Below are positions 32,019 through 43,854 of a stretch of DNA of 64,000 nt, one piece after another. The position numbers and the translations under genes were made by a program. Within the stretch, counting starts at the first letter, position 1; each line of letters begins with the position of its first letter. Source of the stretch: Nanohaloarchaea archaeon SW_7_43_1 (GTDB lineage: Archaea > Nanohalarchaeota > Nanosalinia > Nanosalinales > Nanosalinaceae); NCBI GenBank assembly GCA_003009795.1, contig PXPE01000001.1, forward strand, positions 1 to 64,000, written 5' to 3'. The notes under the pieces were generated by a model. That model saw nothing but the letters and a program-made list of their open reading frames with translations, was not told where the DNA came from and did not search any database.

Positions 32019-32375
32019 ATGGATAGAAAACAGGTAGAAAAAGATCTCAAATTTCTAAAAAACGACAAAAAGGTTCTAGCCGTTCTACTTTTCGGTTCAC
32101 AGGTTACAGGTAAAACCCATGAAAGAAGTGACACAGATATTTGTATAGTAGCTCCTGATACGAAACCGATTAAAATAATGAGAAAAGTATGGAGAAGGCT
32201 CAAAACCGAGAAATACGATATACATACTTTCGAAGAGTTCAGTCTGAAGATGAAAAACCAGGTAATGAAAGATCATGAGATAATCCGCTGTGAGGATGAA
32301 CAGGAACTAGAAGAATACTTCTACCGATACAGAAAAATCTGGAACGACCAAGCAATTGCCAGAGGAGTAACATAA
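32019..32375 (+). CDS. Minimal nucleotidyltransferase (MNT/MntA-like)
   Basis: A 118-residue protein of the DNA polymerase beta-like nucleotidyltransferase fold, with the signature LLFGSQVTGKTHERSDTDICIV (GS, then D-x-D). A third acidic residue is plausibly in YDIHTFEEF. Proteins of this size often act with a HEPN partner as toxin-antitoxin pairs in which the transferase modifies the HEPN toxin, but no HEPN gene lies next to it. A very strong Shine-Dalgarno sequence AAGGAGGTG (32005-32013) precedes the ATG, unusual in this window where most genes lack one. An orphan antitoxin is possible. Confidence 0.85.
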   Translation: MDRKQVEKDLKFLKNDKKVLAVLLFGSQVTGKTHERSDTDICIVAPDTKPIKIMRKVWRRLKTEKYDIHTFEEFSLKMKNQVMKDHEIIRCEDEQELEEYFYRYRKIWNDQAIARGVT

Positions 32376-35472: not shown

Positions 35473-38400
35473 ATGAAATCAATCAAAAAACTGAAATCAA
35501 CAGGTAAAGCTGTAGCAGGCTCTGCACTTCTTGTAGGAGCAACTCTTACAGGAGCGGCCGGTCTAGCTTCAGCTTCATCACATAACATGGATGACTCCGG
35601 ATCAATGGATCTCGGGGACTATCCGATGCCATTTGTAAACGAAGATGGCGAAGTCGATACAACAGTTGTAGTCGGCGAACAAGCAGCAACAGCAGACGTT
35701 GTTGGAGCAATTAACGTTGCCGGATCACTCGGTAACGCAGCCTTCATGGAAGAAGAAGTAGACGTAGACGTATCGGGAGCAACAGCTACTTACAGCGCAG
35801 AAGACGGAGAAACACTGAACAGAAGAAACTCAGATCTCTTCTTCGGACAAGGAACAGCAGCAGAGCAAGTAAGATTTGATGGACAGGACATCAATGCACT
35901 AGAAACAACAACTGTAAGCTCTGTAAGCAATGAAGAAGTAGAACTAGAACACGATCTTATGATTGGAGATCAGCCACAATCGTTCAATTCAGAACGTGGA
36001 GACGTTGACGATCCTGTACTACACATAAAAAATCCATCATCTGACCTCGATGTCAACAGCGACTATCTTCTACAAGGAGAAGTAGAGTTCGACGAAACAA
36101 TGGACTTTACAACCAATGAAGGAGATCCAAGTGATGGTGCAGATCAAATCCTTGAAGATGGAGAGACATTAGAACTATTCGGACAGGAGTACACATACTC
36201 CGACGAATCAGAAGCAGATGAACTTGTTCTTTACGGATCTAGCACAAGATTCGAAGCAGACACAGGAGAAACAACCACTGTAGAAGTTGATGGAGAAGAA
36301 CAAGAGCTTGGAGTTGAGTATGTACAAGAAGGAGAAAACTCAGCAACAATCACAGTCAACGGAGACACACAGTCAGTAGATGACGGAGAAACAATTACAG
36401 TAAACGGAGAAGACATTAGAGTATCCGACATCTTCAGAACCGGACCTGACGGAGAAGGAACAGTTAAGTTCTCAATCGGATCAGAAGAACTAGTAGTTAC
36501 AAACTCCGATGTAGAAGTTGACGGAGAATCCGTAGACGGAGTAGACGTAGCACTTGACGCAGAAAACGATGACTTCACAGCTGTAGACGGAATCTCATTT
36601 GCATTCGGAGCACAAGACTCTGATGAAAACCTAGTACAGGCAGGAGAAACCTACGAAACACCTGTATTCGGTCTAGAATTCCACTACGCAGGTCTAGCAC
36701 CGAACGCTGCAGAAGAACCAGCAGGAGAAATCGAAGTTGATGCAACAGAAGACGACGATGTATCACTGGACTACACAGCAGACTCAGGAGAAGACGTATC
36801 CCTAACACTGGGAGAACCTGATGATTCCGGAAACTTTGATCCCGGACCAGGCGATGAAGATGAACAAATCGCACAGTACGAAGGCCAACAAATCTCAGAA
36901 GACGATTACACAGTCCTCAACAGTAACGAAGAAGCAGTAATGGTCGAAGTTACAAACGTTGACGACTCAGACCTACAAAGCGGAGAAGATGATGGAGAAC
37001 TATCCGTATCACTTAGCAACGCAGCAACAGACGAATCAATGACAGTCGAAGAAGACGGACTGAACCTATCATCAGGAAGCGACGACCTCGAAGACGACGG
37101 AAGCTACGAGCTACAGTCAGAATCCATTGAAGGAATGGACTACGACGTCACATGGCATGGAAACGAACAAGTCAGCTTCGTTAGAAGTACAAGAGATGAC
37201 GGTCACGTACAACTGCATCCACACATGTACACAAACACAGGCGCAGCAGTAGCTGTAGACGCACCAGGAGCACTCGACGCAAGCGAAGCATTCGCCGTCA
37301 CAACAGAAGACTTCACATCTCCAGCAGAATCTCAGTCTATGACTGAAGATGGATCGGCAGGACAAGCAGACTTCCAGCTTGATTTGGGATCTATCTCAGG
37401 AACCGATTCCGATGATGTAGAGTTAAGGGTTGCAGGAACTACTGACGGTTCAAACACCTACGATGAAACAGTGACCCTCGATGACTCAGGTGATTCTGCA
37501 AGCTTCGGAACATCTCCATCAAATGTAGATGTATCAAGAAATGGAGAGGACACAATCGAGTTCACGCTATCAGCCAATTCAGGGGCACAGGTCACAGAGC
37601 TTGAAGTACAGGGAGCTGGAGCATCAGGAGACGTTGGTTACACACCTGGATCTGAAACTGAAGCTGGAGACTACACAACACTCACAGTAAGCCCAGCAAC
37701 AAGAACAGCTGATCTTCCGAGTGGAGTTGCATCAAATGATGCAACAGCAGATGTAGAGTTCCAAACTACGGAAGAACTTGGTAAAAGTGTAGACACGAAT
37801 GAGGACTTCGTTCAGTACACACTGGACGGAGCTCAAGGTGATGAGACAGTCAACCTTAGCCGAGGAAACACACAGGTTAACCACACAGCAGTTCTTGTAA
37901 CTGAGCCTGAAGACGACGAAGACGACGAACAGGCATACGTTGTTGAAGGTCGTACAACTGATTCCAGCCAGAATGTCGACGTGACATACACTGGTGGAGA
38001 AGATCTCAGAGATACTGAGAGCTTGGATGATGAAAGTGTAGAAGTTGGTTACGACTTTTACGGAGCTCACACCATGTTTGACACTGAGAACTCCGATACG
38101 GACAACTTCAAGCTACACCTTCCGGAAGCACAGTCAACAGCAGGTATGGCTGTAACTGGAGCTGATGGATCACTGTCAGCATCAGGAGCATCCTCAGGAT
38201 CAGCGATGACGATGAGTCCTACAGGATTCCCTGATTCAGCAGCTCTTGACTCAGAGGTTTCAGGATCTGACAGAGATCAGAACATGATCCTTGTCGGGGG
38301 ACCTGCGGTCAACTCATTGACTGAAGAGCTTGCACAGGAGAACAAGACCTGGACAAGAGACAACTACGATGAAGACACATGGGTACTTGACCTGGTAGAC

Positions 38401-38553
38401 GGATTCAGAGAAGGAACTCATGCACTGGTAGTCGCAGGACATTCAGCTGACGACACTCGAGCAGCTTCATCCTACATCAGCAACTACGCTGATAACGCAG
38501 ATGAACTAGCTGGCGAGACAACAGTCAACATGACAACTTCCGCTTCCCAGTAG
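35473..38553 (+). CDS. S-layer protein
   Basis: A 1026-residue, very acidic surface protein. A signal peptide (MKSIKKLKSTGKAVAGSALLVGATLTGAAGLASA) is followed by the N-terminal S-layer block DYPMPFVNEDGEVDTTVVVGEQAATADVVGAINVAGSLG. Long Thr/Asp/Glu-rich beta domains follow. The C-terminal half of the S-layer fold then resumes: NMILVGGPAVNSLTEEL, and ALVVAGHSADDTRAASSYISNY. This split N/C pattern is that of archaeal (methanococcal-type) S-layer proteins, with internal beta domains inserted. No C-terminal membrane anchor is visible. Codon use seems to change near 37330, from almost uniformly A-ending to mixed. It should be among the most expressed genes. It ends at a TAG followed by a hairpin terminator. 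Confidence 0.93.
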   Translation: MKSIKKLKSTGKAVAGSALLVGATLTGAAGLASASSHNMDDSGSMDLGDYPMPFVNEDGEVDTTVVVGEQAATADVVGAINVAGSLGNAAFMEEEVDVDVSGATATYSAEDGETLNRRNSDLFFGQGTAAEQVRFDGQDINALETTTVSSVSNEEVELEHDLMIGDQPQSFNSERGDVDDPVLHIKNPSSDLDVNSDYLLQGEVEFDETMDFTTNEGDPSDGADQILEDGETLELFGQEYTYSDESEADELVLYGSSTRFEADTGETTTVEVDGEEQELGVEYVQEGENSATITVNGDTQSVDDGETITVNGEDIRVSDIFRTGPDGEGTVKFSIGSEELVVTNSDVEVDGESVDGVDVALDAENDDFTAVDGISFAFGAQDSDENLVQAGETYETPVFGLEFHYAGLAPNAAEEPAGEIEVDATEDDDVSLDYTADSGEDVSLTLGEPDDSGNFDPGPGDEDEQIAQYEGQQISEDDYTVLNSNEEAVMVEVTNVDDSDLQSGEDDGELSVSLSNAATDESMTVEEDGLNLSSGSDDLEDDGSYELQSESIEGMDYDVTWHGNEQVSFVRSTRDDGHVQLHPHMYTNTGAAVAVDAPGALDASEAFAVTTEDFTSPAESQSMTEDGSAGQADFQLDLGSISGTDSDDVELRVAGTTDGSNTYDETVTLDDSGDSASFGTSPSNVDVSRNGEDTIEFTLSANSGAQVTELEVQGAGASGDVGYTPGSETEAGDYTTLTVSPATRTADLPSGVASNDATADVEFQTTEELGKSVDTNEDFVQYTLDGAQGDETVNLSRGNTQVNHTAVLVTEPEDDEDDEQAYVVEGRTTDSSQNVDVTYTGGEDLRDTESLDDESVEVGYDFYGAHTMFDTENSDTDNFKLHLPEAQSTAGMAVTGADGSLSASGASSGSAMTMSPTGFPDSAALDSEVSGSDRDQNMILVGGPAVNSLTEELAQENKTWTRDNYDEDTWVLDLVDGFREGTHALVVAGHSADDTRAASSYISNYADNADELAGETTVNMTTSASQ

Positions 38554-38625
38554 AGGAAGAAAAGTTGTAGAGTAACGGGCTCAACCCGTCATTTTTCCTT
38601 TTCTATTTTTCTCTCAAATAAGTTC
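38554..38625 (+). terminator. S-layer terminator, copy R0 of a dispersed repeat
   Basis: After the stop, AGGAAGAAAAGTTGTAGA leads to the hairpin ACGGGCTCAACCCGT (5-bp stem ACGGG/CCCGT, 38574-38588) and T-rich tails (ATTTTTCCTTTTCTATTTTT). The same block recurs at 39512, 40218, 41216 and 42121. Confidence 0.8.
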
Positions 38626-38689
38626 AATCTGACTTTTCCATGACTAGCGCACCGATATTTTTAAGATATTCAAGACGAAGACAAAAGTT

Positions 38690-38938
38690 ATGTCAGAAGT
38701 GGATATTCCTCAAGATGTTTTCGATTCGATAAAGATACCGGAGCGAGAGAAAGAGAGAGAAATACGGCAGGAACTAGCTTTATCTCTTTACAACCGAGGA
38801 GCTCTTTCTTTTGGTAAGGCTAGACAACTTGCGGGAATGTCAAAAGAAGAATTTCACAGAGAACTTGGTGAAAGAGGGATAGAAAGACATTATACTGAGG
38901 AAGAGCTTGAAGAGGATCTGGAATATGGCCAGAAATAA
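38690..38938 (+). CDS. UPF0175 family antitoxin (cassette 1)
   Basis: An 82-residue protein of the UPF0175 (VapB-like) family: EIRQELALSLYNRGALSFGKARQLAGMSKEEFHRELGERGIERHYTEEELEEDL, a small helix-turn-helix followed by a toxin-neutralising tail. It is leaderless or nearly so, after a GATATTTTTAAGATATT promoter box. It overlaps the toxin gene by 14 nt, typical of an antitoxin-toxin pair with coupled translation and autoregulation. Confidence 0.88.
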   Translation: MSEVDIPQDVFDSIKIPEREKEREIRQELALSLYNRGALSFGKARQLAGMSKEEFHRELGERGIERHYTEEELEEDLEYGQK

Positions 38939-39398
38939 TATAGTTGTCTCGGACACTTCTCCATTGCTGAATCTTGCTTTCATTGATAGACTTGAACTTC
39001 TTGAAGCGCAGTTCGGAAAGATAAGGGTTCCAGAGCAAGTATGGGAAGAGATACAAGAAGGAGAAAAAGGTAAAGATCTCCTTGATAACAGAAAAGGTAT
39101 TCTTATTGAAATAGTTAAAGTAGAAGAAGAAAGTCTCTACACAGAGCTAAGACAAAAACTAGACAAAGGCGAATCAGCAGCCATCACTCATGCAATAAAG
39201 TCAAATGCCGATCTTGTATTATTAGATGAAAAAGAGGGAAGGCAAACAGCCCGGAAACACAATCTTGAAGCAACAGGAGTAATAGGAGTATTAATTAAAG
39301 CCAGCAAAAACGAAAAAATAGACTTAAAGCAAGATCTGGACAATCTCAAAGATGAAGGATTCTGGATTTCGGAAGAACTTTATAGGAATATTATCTAA
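38925..39398 (+). CDS. DUF3368 PIN-like toxin (cassette 1)
   Basis: A 157-residue PIN-fold ribonuclease. Acidic residues are seen in VVSDTSPLLNL (D), VPEQVWEEI (E), LDKGESAAITHAI (E) and LVLLDEKEGRQTA (D). The DUF3368-specific ATGVIGVLIKA follows. The ATG at 38925 (MARNNIV) is preferred to one six codons earlier because the conserved region begins directly after it. It is the established partner type of UPF0175 antitoxins. The gene looks intact. Downstream sequence leads to repeat R1. Confidence 0.88.
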   Translation: MARNNIVVSDTSPLLNLAFIDRLELLEAQFGKIRVPEQVWEEIQEGEKGKDLLDNRKGILIEIVKVEEESLYTELRQKLDKGESAAITHAIKSNADLVLLDEKEGRQTARKHNLEATGVIGVLIKASKNEKIDLKQDLDNLKDEGFWISEELYRNII

Positions 39399-39511
39399 AA
39401 GGAATTTCCTCTCGCTACCTTAATTCTTTGCGGAATTGAGAAAAAGCTTCCAAACCCTATTCGCACAACCCGCATCCGAGATTAGTGCTTTGTTACATGG
39501 TTGATCTAACT
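39399..39511. other. Intergenic DNA after cassette 1
   Basis: No gene seen. It ends where the S-layer terminator-like repeat R1 begins. Confidence 0.6.
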
Positions 39512-39583
39512 CGAGGAAGAAAAGAAGTTGTAGATTAACGGGCTCAACCCGTCATTTTTCCTTTTCTATTTTCTCTTTCTCCA
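39512..39583 (+). repeat. Repeat R1: copy of the S-layer 3' flank and terminator
   Basis: It repeats the S-layer 3' flank almost exactly: CGAGGAAGAAAAGAAGTTGTAGA, then TTAACGGGCTCAACCCGTCA and TTTTTCCTTTTCTATTTT. The main difference is one short insertion (AAG). It separates TA cassettes 1 and 2. Confidence 0.9.
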
Positions 39584-39627
39584 GCACTACCGAAACTGAT
39601 TTATGGATGATAGCTCATTATATATTC

Positions 39628-39873
39628 ATGAACGAGAGAATAGAGATAGACCCAGAAGTGATGACCGGTAAACCGGTTATCAGGGGCACCCGGATACCAG
39701 TACACAAGATTGTGGAGCTCCTCTCCCAAGGAATGACGGCAGAGGATCTACTTGAGGAATACCCTGCAATTGAAAAAGAGGATGTCAACGCTGCACTAGA
39801 TTACGCCGCAGAAACCCTGGAGGAGGAATCCGTCTTCAAGACAGGGGGAGACGACCTTGAAATTCATAGTTGA
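39628..39873 (+). CDS. DUF433 antitoxin (cassette 2)
   Basis: An 81-residue DUF433 protein: ERIEIDPEVMTGKPVIRGTRIPVHKIVELLSQGMTAEDLLEEYPAIEKEDVNAALDYAAETL read as the classic PxxxxGKPxIxGTRIxV start plus helix-turn-helix. Such proteins are antitoxins to DUF5615 PIN-like toxins. The ATG at 39628 (MNERIEI) is chosen; a TATA box CTGATTTATGG lies about 25 nt upstream. It overlaps the toxin by 17 nt. Confidence 0.9.
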   Translation: MNERIEIDPEVMTGKPVIRGTRIPVHKIVELLSQGMTAEDLLEEYPAIEKEDVNAALDYAAETLEEESVFKTGGDDLEIHS

Positions 39874-40204
39874 TGAAAGCACAGGTAAGAAGGTTGCAGA
39901 TTTCCTAAATGAAGATTACGACACCGTTTTCGTGGGCGAAGAGATGTTGGGCGCCTCCGACAGCGAAATAATTAAGAAAGCGAGGCGAGAAGACAGGATT
40001 ATAGTAACCAACGACAAAGACTTCGGACAGCTAGCGGTCAAAGACGGTCGGGAAGCCAAAGGAATACTCCTGCTAAGACTCAAACTAGAAACACCGCAGA
40101 ACAAGATAAAGATTACAGAACAAGTACTAGCCGATCACAGAGAAAAACTGGAAGATAATCTAGTAGTAGCGAAAGAAGACAGCACAAAGGTAAGACCGAT
40201 CTAA
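39857..40204 (+). CDS. DUF5615 PIN-like toxin (cassette 2)
   Basis: A 115-residue PIN-like protein: MKFIVDESTGKKVADFLNEDYDTVFVGE (first Asp), GASDSEIIKKARREDRIIVTNDKDFGQL (second acidic cluster), and the GILLLRL strand. The start is a TTG inside the antitoxin gene; coding similarity to the family begins at that residue. Probable ribonuclease toxin neutralised by the upstream DUF433 protein. Complete and intact. Confidence 0.88.
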   Translation: MKFIVDESTGKKVADFLNEDYDTVFVGEEMLGASDSEIIKKARREDRIIVTNDKDFGQLAVKDGREAKGILLLRLKLETPQNKIKITEQVLADHREKLEDNLVVAKEDSTKVRPI

Positions 40205-40217
40205 ACAAGTAATGGCA

Positions 40218-40297
40218 TCCGCTTCCCAGTAGGGAAGCAAAAGCCTTAGATTCGTGTGCTTGACCCGTTATTTCTCTTGTATTTTTCTCTCTAAACC
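40218..40297 (+). repeat. Repeat R2: degenerate copy of the S-layer 3' end
   Basis: TCCGCTTCCCAGTAG repeats the last S-layer codons and stop, followed by GGAAGCAAAAGCCTTAGA, a decayed hairpin (GTGCTTGACCCGT) and TTCTCTTGTATTTTTCTCTC. It is more diverged than R1, suggesting a greater age. Confidence 0.85.
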
Positions 40298-40370
40298 TGA
40301 CCGAAAAATGCAGAAAACACTTACCCAGAGATCGAAAAGTTATTAAATATTGCTAACTATTGTTAAGAAT

Positions 40371-40691
40371 ATGTCAAGTGCAAGCACATCCTTCAGCATA
40401 CCTGAAACTATGAGGGACGAAATAGATGTTTTGGTTGAATCAGGGGAATACAGTTCTCGGAGCGACGTCATGAGAGACGCGTTTAGAACCTTCCTGAGAA
40501 AGAATCCTGAAAAACGTATACGTACAACCGTAGAACTCTACAAAAACGGAAAAGTATCCCTCATGAGAGCTGCAGAACTCGCAGAAATGAATCTAGAAAA
40601 CTACAAGGAAGAACTCAACGAAAGAGGTATCACGGTCAAGACCAACAAAGGAGACGAGGAAGAAAAGGAAGCAGTTGAAGAGAGGCTTTAA
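40371..40691 (+). CDS. Antitoxin with ribbon-helix-helix and UPF0175-like parts (cassette 3)
   Basis: A 106-residue protein. N-terminal ribbon-helix-helix (SFSIPETMRDEIDVLVESGEYSSRSDVMRDAFRTFL, DNA-binding strand at SFSIP) is joined to a UPF0175-like helical segment (TTVELYKNGKVSLMRAAELAEMNLENYKEELNERGI) and an acidic tail. The combination gives an operator-binding and a toxin-binding half. The ATG at 40371 follows an AATATTGCTAAC region with a TATTAAATATT TATA box 25 nt upstream. It precedes the PIN toxin by 5 nt. Confidence 0.85.
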   Translation: MSSASTSFSIPETMRDEIDVLVESGEYSSRSDVMRDAFRTFLRKNPEKRIRTTVELYKNGKVSLMRAAELAEMNLENYKEELNERGITVKTNKGDEEEKEAVEERL

Positions 40692-40696
40692 CCCCG

Positions 40697-41178
40697 ATGT
40701 TGATAATGGACACAGATGCAGCTAGTGTTCTGGCCAAAGGCAAACTACTGGATGAAACACTGAAACTTTTCAAAAACCATAAAGTGGTAATAACTCCAAA
40801 GATTAAGGAAGAGCTAGGAAAACCGATAGAGCACGGCTACGGATACCCGAGTAGAATATTCGACAAAATCAATACTGAAACTCCTAATAAAAAAGAAAGG
40901 AAACAGTACCGAGAATGGTTCAACGAACAAACAGTAGACAAAGGAGAACTGGAAGCCATAGCAATGGCAAAATCAAGAGACGCAATCTTCTTCACAATGG
41001 ACCAAAAAGCATCCAGATACGCAGAAAAACAAATGTTCAAACACAAGCCTTCAACAACCTAGCAAAACTACTACACAAAAAAGAAATAACATCCAAGGAA
41101 GAACTCAAAAACTCTATCAAACTAATAGAGCAAAAAGACAACCGAAAAATTAACTTCAAACTCAAAAATCTATAAACA
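40697..41178 (+). pseudogene. PIN toxin broken by a frameshift (cassette 3)
   Basis: The reading frame from 40697 gives a PIN domain (MDTDAASVLAKGKLL, VVITPKIKEEL, DKGELEAIAMAKSRDAIFFTMDQKASRYAEK) but ends early at 41062 with an unrelated tail. The expected C-terminal helix region (AFNNLAKLLHKKEITSKEEL, then KLIEQKDNR) continues in another frame from about 41040 to 41178. A single-base shift near 41035-41045 would restore a full-length toxin. It may be inactivated, an assembly error, or, less likely, programmed frameshifting. Confidence 0.75.
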
Positions 41179-41215
41179 CCAAGGAAAATAAGCTGGGAGA
41201 CAAAAATAAAAAAAA

Positions 41216-41270
41216 ACAGATTAACGGGCTCAACCCGTCAATTTTCTTTCATATTTTTCTGACCAAAACT
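41216..41270 (+). repeat. Repeat R3: terminator part of the S-layer 3' flank
   Basis: AACAGATTAACGGGCTCAAC, CCGTCAATTTTCTTTCATAT and TTTTCTGACC repeat the S-layer terminator hairpin and the following T-rich tail. The coding-end portion is reduced to AGCTGGGAGA about 25 nt upstream. Confidence 0.85.
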
Positions 41271-41299
41271 GATTTATTATTCTAGAGGAAATTTTTTCC

Positions 41300-41593
41300 A
41301 TGACTACAGATACTAGGGAAAGAGCGACTGAAATGGCAGACGAACTTGGTTTCAGTGACGAGGGAGAGCTTATGGACGTTGCTGTCGATACATTATTAGC
41401 TGCAAGACCTGATATTAGAAAGGATTTAGCCATCGCACTTTACAGGGATAACAGGATCTCATTAGATAGAGCTGTAGAGATTGCAGGTATGGAACGGAAA
41501 GAGTTCAAAGAAATACTTAAAGAGGAAAACATTGAGAGAGAATCAGGTTCTCTAGATCAATCGGTCAAGAATATTGCCGATTACAGCGGTTGA
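41300..41593 (+). CDS. UPF0175-like antitoxin (cassette 4)
   Basis: A 97-residue protein. N-terminal part TRERATEMADELGFSDEGELMDVAVDTLLAARP, then the UPF0175-like IRKDLAIALYRDNRISLDRAVEIAGMERKEFKEILKEENIERE, close in layout to cassettes 1 and 3. The TATA box ACTGATTTATTATTC precedes it by about 25 nt, part of the repeated R3 module. It ends 6 nt before the toxin gene. Confidence 0.85.
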   Translation: MTTDTRERATEMADELGFSDEGELMDVAVDTLLAARPDIRKDLAIALYRDNRISLDRAVEIAGMERKEFKEILKEENIERESGSLDQSVKNIADYSG

Positions 41594-41599
41594 GGCATT

Positions 41600-42007
41600 A
41601 TGCTAGTAGCAGATACAGATTTTCTAGGTGCTTTTCTGAAAGCAAAATCAGTTGATATTATTCTTGATATCTTTGATGAGAATAAAATTGTGATACCGAA
41701 ACAGGTAGAAGAAGAGATTCTAGAAGAACTAGGCAGAAGATTCGACAATAGAATAGAAGTAAGAAATACCAAGCCGATACAGGATTTAAATCTAGGGGAA
41801 GGAGAAAGAGCAGTAATATCTCTGGCAACAAAAGAAGATCTGATTCTCATGAACGATCGAAAAGCTTGTGGAAAAGCCGAAGAATTGAATTTGAAACCAG
41901 TTACGGTACCCGGATTTCCAAAATTTGTAGAAAAAGAAGTAGGCTCTGAGAAAACACGGGAAATAGCAGATAAAATACGGGTTAAAGATAATTACATTTT
42001 TTCTTAG
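41600..42007 (+). CDS. PIN-domain toxin (cassette 4)
   Basis: A 135-residue PIN-type protein (MLVADTDFLGAFLKAKSVDIILDIFDENKIVIPKQVEEEIL, then LNLGEGERAVISLATKEDLILMNDRKACGKAEELNLKPVTVPGFPKFV). Acidic residues D5/D7, E38, E76 and D91 fit a PIN nuclease. It is intact and paired with the preceding antitoxin. It resembles the cassette 3 toxin in its first half. Confidence 0.85.
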   Translation: MLVADTDFLGAFLKAKSVDIILDIFDENKIVIPKQVEEEILEELGRRFDNRIEVRNTKPIQDLNLGEGERAVISLATKEDLILMNDRKACGKAEELNLKPVTVPGFPKFVEKEVGSEKTREIADKIRVKDNYIFS

Positions 42008-42050
42008 AAAGAAAGAGAGGAATTAGGATTAAATGATCAATAAATCTGTC

Positions 42051-42196
42051 AAGCTTTATCAGCAATTACGCTGATGACGAAAAAGACCTAGCTGGGAAGT
42101 CAACACACCGTGACAACTTCCGCTTCCCAAGAAAAGCTGCAGGGTAACAGACCCAACCCCTCAATTTTTCCTTATATTTTCTCTAAAACTGGCCGA
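42051..42196 (+). repeat. Repeat R4: about 80 nt of S-layer coding end plus terminator
   Basis: The first part (TTATCAGCAATTACGCTGAT...GACAACTTCCGCTTCCCA, 42055-42128) is clearly homologous to 38473-38549, the last 25 or so codons of the S-layer gene. It is interrupted by small indels and has no function as a frame. It continues with GAAAAGCTGCAGGGTAACAG, ACCCAACCCCTCAATTTTTC, a decayed version of the terminator. This is the strongest evidence that the repeats descend from the S-layer 3' end. Confidence 0.92.
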
Positions 42197-42230
42197 AAAG
42201 AGTTTAAGTCTGAACCTCAATAAAAATCTT

Positions 42231-42380
42231 ATGATTGAAACTGTAGAAAGAGAGGACAAAAGTATTGAGGAACTAATGGAAGAGATGAAAGAAGGCGCTC
42301 AAGATATGATTGAAGGAAATACTGAGTCAGATAAATCTTCTATCAGAGCCCGGATCGAAAAATTGAAAGAGGATCTCTAA
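42231..42380 (+). CDS. Small candidate antitoxin (cassette 5)
   Basis: A 49-residue acidic helical protein (MIETVEREDKSIEELMEEMK...IRARIEKLKEDL). The same length and pattern recur at 44798 (SxEELxExxKE...SIRxRIEx), so these form a family. A leaderless ATG follows an AGTTTAAGTC box. It is convergent with, and overlaps by 38 nt, the RelE-like gene on the other strand. Antitoxin function is inferred from that position, from size and from charge. Confidence 0.65.
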   Translation: MIETVEREDKSIEELMEEMKEGAQDMIEGNTESDKSSIRARIEKLKEDL

Positions 42381-42681
42381 TCTTCCCTGTCAGCTTTTTG
42401 GCTTCTTTCTTGGTTAATACTCTCCAACCGTAGATAGTATCGTCTTCAAGTTCCTCAACATAACCTCCTTCTACAAACCAGGCTCTATAATCTCTACCTA
42501 AGTTTATCTGGAGAACAGGATTCATATTCACTGAGAGAAACTTATCGAAAGCCTGTCTAGGAGAGGCCCCCAAACTAAGATTCTTCTCAATAGCGTCTTT
42601 CTTACTGAGATAGGTATCTCCTACTTCATCCGGAAGTTCAACAAGATCCTTCATAGCTCTCTCAGTAACTTCTATCTCCAT
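42343..42681 (-). CDS. RelE/ParE-fold toxin-like protein (cassette 5)
   Basis: A 112-residue protein with RelE-type layout: MEIEVTERAMKDLVELPDEVGDTYLSKKDAIEKNL, then NPVLQINLGRDYRAWFVEG (the central R-x-W strand) and GWRVLTKKEAKKL. It would be a ribosome-dependent or mRNA-cleaving toxin. Unlike standard relBE pairs it lies on the strand opposite to its neighbouring small ORF, with 3' ends overlapping by 38 nt. The ATG at 42681 is preceded by an AACTTAAGTACTTTATA TATA region. Confidence 0.72.
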   Translation of the reverse strand: MEIEVTERAMKDLVELPDEVGDTYLSKKDAIEKNLSLGASPRQAFDKFLSVNMNPVLQINLGRDYRAWFVEGGYVEELEDDTIYGWRVLTKKEAKKLTGKIRDPLSIFRSGL

Positions 42682-42826
42682 ATAAAGTACTTAAGTTGAT
42701 CTCATTAATAACAGTAAAAAACGAATATCTGCTAAATAGGTCTCTTCAAAGATTAATAGAGCTAAAATCATTCTTTCTTGCTTTCTGGCCGAAATTATTT
42801 ATAGCTCAAGCAAGTCACTGAATAGT

Positions 42827-42973
42827 ATGAATGCAGAAAACCATGATATTGGCAGATCGTTAAAGAATCGATCGGGGATTAAAGAAGCAGTGGCCACACA
42901 GGATAAACTAAGAAGTAAAAATAGTGACTGGAATGGAGAGGAAGAGATTCAGAAACGGCGGAAAAAGAGATAG
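42827..42973 (+). CDS. Small candidate antitoxin (cassette 6)
   Basis: A 48-residue basic protein (MNAENHDIGRSLKNRSGIKEAV...QKRRKKR) that overlaps the start of the PIN frame by about 4 nt. It has a TTATTTATAGC TATA box about 25 nt upstream, next to CTTTCTGGCCGAAA, the promoter motif shared by other cassettes. A VapB-like antitoxin role is inferred from the overlap only. Confidence 0.55.
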   Translation: MNAENHDIGRSLKNRSGIKEAVATQDKLRSKNSDWNGEEEIQKRRKKR

Positions 42974-43323
42974 TTGTACTTGATGCATCAGTCGTTGTAA
43001 AATGGTTTTCTGAAGAGGATTTAACAGACAAATCTCTTGAAATAAGAGAAATGTATCTGGAAGATGAAATAGACATAGTACTTCCCGATCTTATTTTAAC
43101 TGAGTTAGTCAATGCATTAAGATATAGTTCAGAGTTTGATTCAGAGGATGTAAAAACAGCAATACAGATTTATCTTCGACAGAGCTTGAGGAGAAAGCAA
43201 ATGAGTGGAGATCGTAGTTATCTGATTAATACCAACATTTTTGTCGAATATGTTCTATCTAATTTTTTCACTACCAATGTACCGATATTTTTAACATATT
43301 CAAGAAACATATTATGGTTATAG
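42970..43323 (+). pseudogene. Truncated PIN toxin (cassette 6)
   Basis: From about 42970 the frame reads a good VapC-type PIN start (VVLDASVVVKWFSEEDL, then LPDLILTELVNALRYSSEFDSEDV) but has no standard start codon at its head. After about residue 75 the sequence no longer looks like PIN and runs into DNA resembling a cassette promoter (43281-43305). The second half, with the last catalytic Asp residues, is missing. A probable deletion joined the toxin to the next cassette. Confidence 0.7.
43281..43305 (+). repeat. Second copy of the cassette 1 promoter
   Basis: ACCGATATTTTTAACATATTCAAG repeats 38651-38675 (ACCGATATTTTTAAGATATTCAAG in pieces) with one change. In both cases it lies about 25-35 nt before a small antitoxin-like ORF. 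Confidence 0.85.
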
Positions 43324-43475
43324 AAATGGGTATTTACGCTGATGATGTTGCGGAGTTCACCAGAAAAGGTGAGAACAAGAGAAAACTGGGAGATGTACTG
43401 GCCGGAAGATTCTCAGACCTAGAGATAGACTCGGTAGAAGAAATAAGAAAACTCAAGGAGCGAGAATATGAATAG
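43314..43475 (+). CDS. Small acidic/basic protein, candidate antitoxin (cassette 7a)
   Basis: A 53-residue protein (MVIEMGIYADDVAEFTRKGENKRKLGDVLAGRFSDLEI...KEREYE). It begins directly after the duplicated promoter and overlaps the following ORF by 8 nt. The helical, charged sequence is typical of small antitoxins, but no family is recognised. Confidence 0.55.
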   Translation: MVIEMGIYADDVAEFTRKGENKRKLGDVLAGRFSDLEIDSVEEIRKLKEREYE

Positions 43476-43587
43476 ACTTGAACTAGCAGACTCAATAGCA
43501 TCTAAAAGTAAGCTCACAGCAGATGATGCACAAGAGATCAGCGAAAAGATAAAAGAAGGAATAGCAGAGAAACACGGTTTAGAGTAG
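43468..43587 (+). CDS. Very small protein, candidate antitoxin component (cassette 7b)
   Basis: A 39-residue protein (MNRLELADSIASKSKLTADDAQEISEKIKEGIAEKHGLE). The LADSIASKSKLTADDA segment resembles the end of VapB-type antitoxins in which Leu/Asp pairs alternate. It overlaps the previous ORF and ends immediately before the next ATG (TAGATG), so three small ORFs are tightly packed. Confidence 0.5.
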   Translation: MNRLELADSIASKSKLTADDAQEISEKIKEGIAEKHGLE

Positions 43588-43764
43588 ATGAAATTAATGA
43601 ATCCCAAAAATTTGGACTCTGATGATACAGGTAATTTTGTGAGAGAGGTAGCTTTATCACGGATTGAGAAAGGCAGCATTTCACCAGAACTTCTAAATCT
43701 GGTTGTAGATGAAGAGGGTTCTAGTTTAGATGATGAAAAAGAGGTTTTCAAGTCCTTGAGGTAA
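43588..43764 (+). CDS. Small protein of unknown function (cassette 7c)
   Basis: A 58-residue acidic protein (MKLMNPKNLDSDDTGNFVREVALSRIEKGSISPELLNLV...). It starts at the base after the preceding stop and ends 18 nt before a truncated PIN start, so it occupies the antitoxin position relative to that remnant. No family is recognised. Confidence 0.5.
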   Translation: MKLMNPKNLDSDDTGNFVREVALSRIEKGSISPELLNLVVDEEGSSLDDEKEVFKSLR

Positions 43765-43782
43765 AAACTTAAGGAAACAAGA

Positions 43783-43845
43783 ATGAAAATCATCGTGGAC
43801 GCAAACGTTCTAGTGACAATCCCAACAGAAGAAGAAAATAGGTAA
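43783..43845 (+). pseudogene. PIN toxin remnant (cassette 7)
   Basis: Twenty codons (MKIIVDANVLVTIPTEEENR) show the standard beginning of a PIN domain (IVDANVL) followed by an early TAA. The rest of the toxin is absent. Confidence 0.6.
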
Positions 43846-43854
43846 TGTGAAGAA

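Follow-up and report, generated by a model that had tools for sequence, protein, structure and literature searches.

Toxin–antitoxin cassettes alternating with copies of an S-layer gene 3' end in a nanohaloarchaeon, and a displacement model for their origin

The 64,000-nucleotide window analysed here (the whole stretch at positions 1 to 64,000 of contig PXPE01000001.1, Nanohaloarchaea archaeon SW_7_43_1) contains an S-layer gene and, behind it, a series of toxin–antitoxin (TA) modules interspersed with copies of the gene's 3' end and terminator. These 3'-end sequences, R0 (the native end) to R4, were located at positions 38553-38609, 39516-39572, 40232-40288, 41202-41258 and 42125-42181. The features of the locus, with the cassettes numbered C1 to C6, are as follows.

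35473..38553, + strand: S-layer protein gene, 1026 aa (Pfam S_layer_C, E=9.7e-20), the anchor whose 3' end is repeated
38467..38625, + strand: R0, native S-layer 3' end with hairpin terminator (ACGGGCTCAACCCGT, T-rich tail)
38690..38938, + strand: C1 antitoxin, UPF0175 (Pfam UPF0175, E=9.9e-29)
38925..39398, + strand: C1 toxin, DUF3368/PIN (Pfam DUF3368, E=1.8e-11; PADLOC PDC-S70, E=8.9e-43)
39513..39576, + strand: R1, copy of the S-layer stop/terminator region, 92% (59/64) identical to R0, hairpin intact
39631..39873, + strand: C2 antitoxin, DUF433 (Pfam, E=4e-26)
39857..40204, + strand: C2 toxin, DUF5615, PIN-like (Pfam, E=1.4e-20)
40218..40294, + strand: R2, 47/65 identical to R0, last ~5 S-layer codons and stop kept, hairpin broken
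40336..41182, + strand: C3 block, aligning as a whole to G010 (a genome of another genus), with no R sequence inside
40371-40691, + strand: C3 antitoxin, RHH/UPF0175
40697-41062, + strand: C3 toxin, PIN-like, C-terminally truncated by a frameshift (compared with G010)
41218..41260, + strand: R3, terminator copy, 89% (39/44) identical to R0, hairpin intact
41300..41593, + strand: C4 antitoxin, UPF0175-like (Pfam UPF0175, E=6.8e-12)
41600..42007, + strand: C4 toxin, PIN-like (PADLOC PDC-S70, E=1.7e-8), PIN acidic residues conserved
42049..42188, + strand: R4, the longest fossil, with ~86 bp from the end of the S-layer coding sequence and the terminator, hairpin broken
42231..42681: C5, convergent gene pair (49 aa on +, 112 aa on -), no named family
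42750..42802, + strand: candidate R5, degenerate and weak, 42/61 identical to R3
42827..43323, + strand: C6, degraded cassette with a small ORF and a PIN-like fragment, matching the genome G008

C1 to C4 are predicted type II TA operons, in each of which an antitoxin gene adjoins a toxin gene and both belong to recognised families; the assignment was made through Pfam for C1 and C2, and through antitoxin families, PDC-S70 and conserved acidic residues for C3 and C4. C1, C3 and C4 are distantly related within a single antitoxin/toxin family, C2 is unrelated to them, and all three UPF0175 proteins of the genome sit in the array. The original prediction of at least five TA cassettes became four firm ones and one probable one, because a family search with C5 gave no match to a named toxin family. 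C5 is probably a TA-like module, with relatives in G010 (77% nucleotide identity) and partial ones in G002, G003 and G008, all at other loci. At its end the degraded C6 repeats the C1 leader (43238-43305, 78% identical to 38608-38675).

The copies of the S-layer end are specific to this locus. All pairwise scores among R0 to R4 lay above those of all shuffles, and with R0 as BLASTN query against the whole 956,550-bp genome the only matches were R0 to R4 themselves (E 6e-22 to 2e-8), the next-best match having E=0.48. The R copies are therefore not generic terminators, a reading ruled out by this search together with a genome-wide scan for the pattern ACGGGCTCAACCCGTCANTTTTC, which at up to 3 mismatches returned 3 matches, R0, R1 and R3. 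Alignment, shuffles and BLASTN thus bear out the prediction that S-layer 3'-end copies divide the cassettes and that R1 to R4 are closer to the S-layer 3' flank than to any other terminator of the genome. As also predicted, R2 and R4 retain the last S-layer codons, about five plus the stop in R2 and a ~86-bp remnant with a 2-nt frameshift in R4. R4 matches R0 at 50/63 positions in pairwise alignment (BLASTN 76% identity, E=5.8e-22), and its differences from the S-layer gene fall 5/3/5 on the three codon positions, with no third-position bias. The copies do not become steadily more divergent the further away they lie, R3 being nearer to R0 than R2 is. The score of the candidate R5 was equalled by 15/1714 background windows. 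A conserved CTGRCCRAAA stretch, probably a promoter sequence, lies 3' of R2 to R4.

The cassettes and the R sequences have separate histories, as C3 demonstrates. Its nucleotide identity is 79% to G010 and 82% to G002. The G010 relative lies reversed behind a 982-aa LamG surface-protein gene and is followed by a PIN-type TA pair, so that the same mobile operon is found at two loci that differ in the gene ahead of it and in its orientation. The C3 homology block (40336 to 41182) carries no R and in G010 starts 4 bp after the LamG stop, and cassette and repeated gene end are therefore separate things. Between the present genome (G000) and G010 the C3 proteins share 80-88% identity, as against 63% for the median orthologue (n=123), which suggests that C3 was gained horizontally. 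These values also bear on the idea that a TA-plus-terminator unit was duplicated in tandem in place and then diverged, or that a good terminator was convergently reused. The distant relationship of C1, C3 and C4, and the homology between two cassettes of a second S-layer array in G023 (see below), would agree with this. However, C3 shares at most ~35% amino acid identity with its array neighbours against 79-82% nucleotide identity with other genera, and C2 is unrelated to the other cassettes; the hairpins of R2 and R4 are broken, and the genome has no other terminator that resembles R. We regard this explanation as very improbable.

The same anatomy is found independently in two other genomes. 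S-layer homologues were present in 35/60 genomes searched, own genome counted, and a scan for downstream copies of gene 3' ends over 1.93 Mb of relatives, which covered sampled stretches rather than whole genomes, returned three clean loci alone: the present array, the S-layer gene of G023 and the LamG gene of G010. G023 belongs to another family of the same order. Behind its S-layer gene lie two mutually homologous TA cassettes of the TumE type and a three-gene cassette in reverse orientation; three degenerate copies of the S-layer 3' end separate and follow these cassettes. R1 of G023 looks mosaic, as its left part resembles R2 and its right part is 93% like R0. At the G010 locus three LamG 3' ends bracket the two TA modules, all in frame and each ending in a stop. 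No internal stop or frameshift was found in the LamG copies, and of the 30 sites that vary between the three, 18 are third codon positions (p=0.0025); for changes unique to the two fossils the signal is modest (12/22, p=0.033). Given this bias and the open frames, the copies were probably still functional gene ends while they diverged and were displaced only later, and they look like the 3' ends of distinct functional alleles. The G010 LamG gene resembles virion structural families, and a provirus setting is therefore possible there. The prediction of a recombination hotspot tied to S-layer variation holds insofar as the arrays are tied to a surface gene, but the design is not unique to the S-layer gene, because the LamG gene shows the same.

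Several other candidates from the survey were rejected. Apparent 3'-end duplications at loci L140 and L129 were tandem paralogues or antisense effects, those at L111 and L121, judged by eye from ORFs, were paralogues or an internal repeat read antisense, and inspection of L147 gave no positive finding. A contig scan matched only a same-genus contig that ends inside the S-layer gene. Downstream of G010's own S-layer gene several TA modules of other types were found and no S-layer 3' copies, so TA modules also gather there without fossils; a repeat among those cassettes, considered as an S-layer end, proved to be a cassette leader.

The flanks of S-layer genes in relatives vary as the original prediction anticipated. 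Cassette content differs between genomes, and a near-empty site exists in G005, where the S-layer stop and the photolyase gene are separated by 536 bp, as against 11.9 kb here. Among 27 genomes, 13/32 matches to three TA families were no further than ~6 kb from an S-layer gene, against ~0.5 expected by chance, although the matches cluster and are not independent. Repeated acquisition at the 3' end of one gene, as first proposed, is supported.

All nine copies across the three loci are 3'-terminal, all measure at most ~135 bp, and no 5' or internal gene fragment was found among them. Their left ends are ragged, lying at +16, 0, -14 and -86 here, at -18 and -104 in G023, and at -111 and -134 at the LamG gene. 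Raggedness matters for the view that an integrase, acting in trans or since lost, used the gene 3' end as an att site and that the cassettes carry att copies. Insertion at a 3' end with restoration of the reading frame is typical of integrases, and the cassettes do lie directly behind a stop or terminator, but the copies lack a fixed core and the C3 block carries no att-like sequence common to its two loci. Furthermore, no integrase was found among the array ORFs, in agreement with the prediction; the single tyrosine recombinase match (Phage_integrase) in the whole genome lies at 591 kb, 550 kb from the array, and none was found in the 78%-complete G023 genome. Site-specific integration is accordingly improbable in our assessment, and the target duplication proposed by analogy with att sites fits poorly, because the left ends are ragged and the LamG copies look like the ends of distinct functional alleles; displacement of 3' ends fits better. 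A plasmid origin was rejected, as neither the array DNA nor the S-layer protein had a plasmid match, and so was viral carriage, the viral contigs having neither a relative of the C3 antitoxin nor the R pattern.

Since tandem S-layer genes are common in relatives, the strongest rival is the decay of paralogues, by which complete tandem S-layer (or LamG) genes with TA modules between them would have lost their bodies by deletion, leaving 3' ends and terminators behind. The relatives G003, G004, G005, G006, G007, G013, G015 and G022 have tandem S-layer genes, and in G015 a C1-type (UPF0175) antitoxin homologue sits directly behind an S-layer gene, between two such genes. Fossils that diverged as coding sequence would also be in keeping with decay. 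It would nevertheless need about nine independent deletions, each ending no more than ~135 bp from a stop codon and none sparing a 5' or internal piece, and R1 is 92% identical to R0 where tandem paralogues differ far more in that stretch. We therefore consider decay unlikely.

The reading that we prefer, with a probability of roughly 0.6, is that the array arose by stepwise displacement of the gene 3' end through recombination. What we infer here is the path of recombination, the sequence of events and the part that the TA genes play in selection, and these would be as follows. Related cells would supply DNA that bears a TA operon together with the 3' end of a surface gene, and this DNA would recombine with the resident gene. 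The left crossover would be homologous, inside the gene or an existing 3'-end copy, and the right join could form by homology with a pre-existing copy or, at first, illegitimately. The resident gene would keep a working 3' end, possibly that of a new allele, and gain the TA operon, while the earlier 3' end and terminator would be pushed downstream and remain as a fossil. Each fossil would offer homology for the next gain or loss, and the array could therefore grow and shuffle in an integron-like manner by general recombination (RadA) alone. TA operons may be favoured as cargo, since they come with a promoter of their own and are not easily lost.

In line with displacement are the specificity of the R copies, their recurrence in G023 and G010, the ragged left ends and 3'-terminal nature of the fossils, the third-position bias at LamG, the mosaic-looking G023 R1, the near-empty G005 site, the differing cassette content among genomes, the occurrence of C3 at two loci with a horizontal-type identity, and the lone, distant tyrosine recombinase. 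Against it, the fossils of at most ~135 bp are shorter than expected for random right joins along a 3-kb gene, R4 is without codon-position bias and the LamG fossil signature is modest, R3 is closer to R0 than R2 is, and the G010 S-layer TA cluster has no S-layer copies.

These results point to a recurrent, integrase-free way to stack addiction genes at the ends of surface-protein genes. More tentatively, nanohaloarchaea may possess an integrase-free, integron-like capture system in which displaced S-layer/LamG 3' ends serve as recombination sites for TA/defence cassettes, coupling the exchange of surface-gene ends with the gain of addiction genes. Displacement arrays, known from bacterial toxin-delivery genes, would thereby be extended to genes for structural surface proteins in DPANN archaea and to cargo made up of whole TA modules. 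This would offer a concrete, testable explanation of why, in very small genomes, TA modules cluster next to S-layer genes. The fossils may be a record of earlier swaps of surface-gene ends, and saltern metagenomes allow a direct check of the displacement model's predictions.

Chromosomal integrons are directional arrays of small cassettes, many of them TA modules, split by a recurring sequence. The likeness to integron arrays noted in the original prediction extends to serial small cassettes divided by recurring sites, but here no IntI-type tyrosine integrase lies beside the array and there are no attC-type folded sites, the R hairpin being broken in R2 and R4; in addition, cassettes may lie in reverse orientation, and the repeat is part of the adjacent gene. 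Islands that integrases insert at gene 3' ends likewise lie directly behind a gene whose end is duplicated, whereas the present arrays have no linked integrase or constant att core and their copy boundaries vary. As members of the UPF0175/DUF3368 (PDC-S70 candidate defence), DUF433/DUF5615 and TumE families the cassettes are ordinary, and what differs is their serial placement between displaced surface-gene 3' ends.

The closest parallels are found in bacteria. At Rhs loci, fragments of variable length from a gene's own sequence are strung downstream of the intact gene, which has been explained by homologous recombination via circles that inserts new ends and pushes old ones downstream (Jackson et al. 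2009, PMC2935791). Here too, fragments of the upstream gene's end are repeated downstream; however, what is repeated is the extreme 3' end, with its terminator, of a gene for a structural protein (S-layer or LamG), the cargo consists of self-contained TA operons instead of a toxic C-terminus fused to the gene, and the hosts are DPANN archaea. In the orphan immunity arrays of the V. cholerae T6SS, successive insertions displace older modules and shift old 3' ends, for which homology-facilitated illegitimate recombination was proposed, with no integrase and with integron-like behaviour noted (Kirchberger et al. 2017, PMC5361080). The present arrays share the putatively displaced 3' ends and the lack of an integrase, but have no secretion system or effector-immunity logic, and they keep complete TA pairs instead of orphan immunity genes. 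Unlike both systems, the upstream gene is S-layer or LamG and not a polymorphic toxin/effector with a variable C-terminus. Our search of open-licence papers turned up no account of TA arrays interrupted by the 3' ends of surface genes. The class of mechanism is known; the anchor gene, the cargo and the lineage are new.

The region behind the window's S-layer gene holds a second copy of the leader of C1, the first toxin-antitoxin cassette behind that gene (a UPF0175 antitoxin with a DUF3368/PIN toxin). This copy (43238-43305) is 78% identical to 38608-38675 and is followed by small degraded ORFs, which suggests the remnant of a further C1-type cassette. A C1-type antitoxin also sits between two S-layer genes in the relative G015 (locus L057), with no toxin behind it; in the toxin's stead there is an ATPase gene preceded by repeated TTTTTACCCTACTAAATTACC sequence.

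Upstream of the S-layer gene, at a distance of ~3 kb, the window does not have the same content as G001, a second species of the genus:

Window 32019-32375: MNT-type nucleotidyltransferase
L048:2605-3359 (G001): UPF0175/PIN-type pair, at the corresponding place

Toxin-antitoxin families lie on both sides of the S-layer gene of G010, from another genus, because DUF433 and TumE matches were also found just upstream (G010:C1 873802-873969 and 874436-874666). The LamG surface-protein gene of G010 (L084:7108-10056) has PHROGs matches to families of virion structural proteins, and its locus may therefore be a provirus, a question on which little was gained from the adjoining genes.

Behind S-layer genes of two families, a three-gene cassette was found in opposite orientations:

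L062:2523-3619: three-gene cassette
L053, between 214 and 1251 bp past the stop of the S-layer gene: three-gene cassette

Its largest protein (206-218 aa) had no match in Pfam or PADLOC, and carries NGHG and RTC(N/R)SA motifs that are suggestive of a caspase-like fold.
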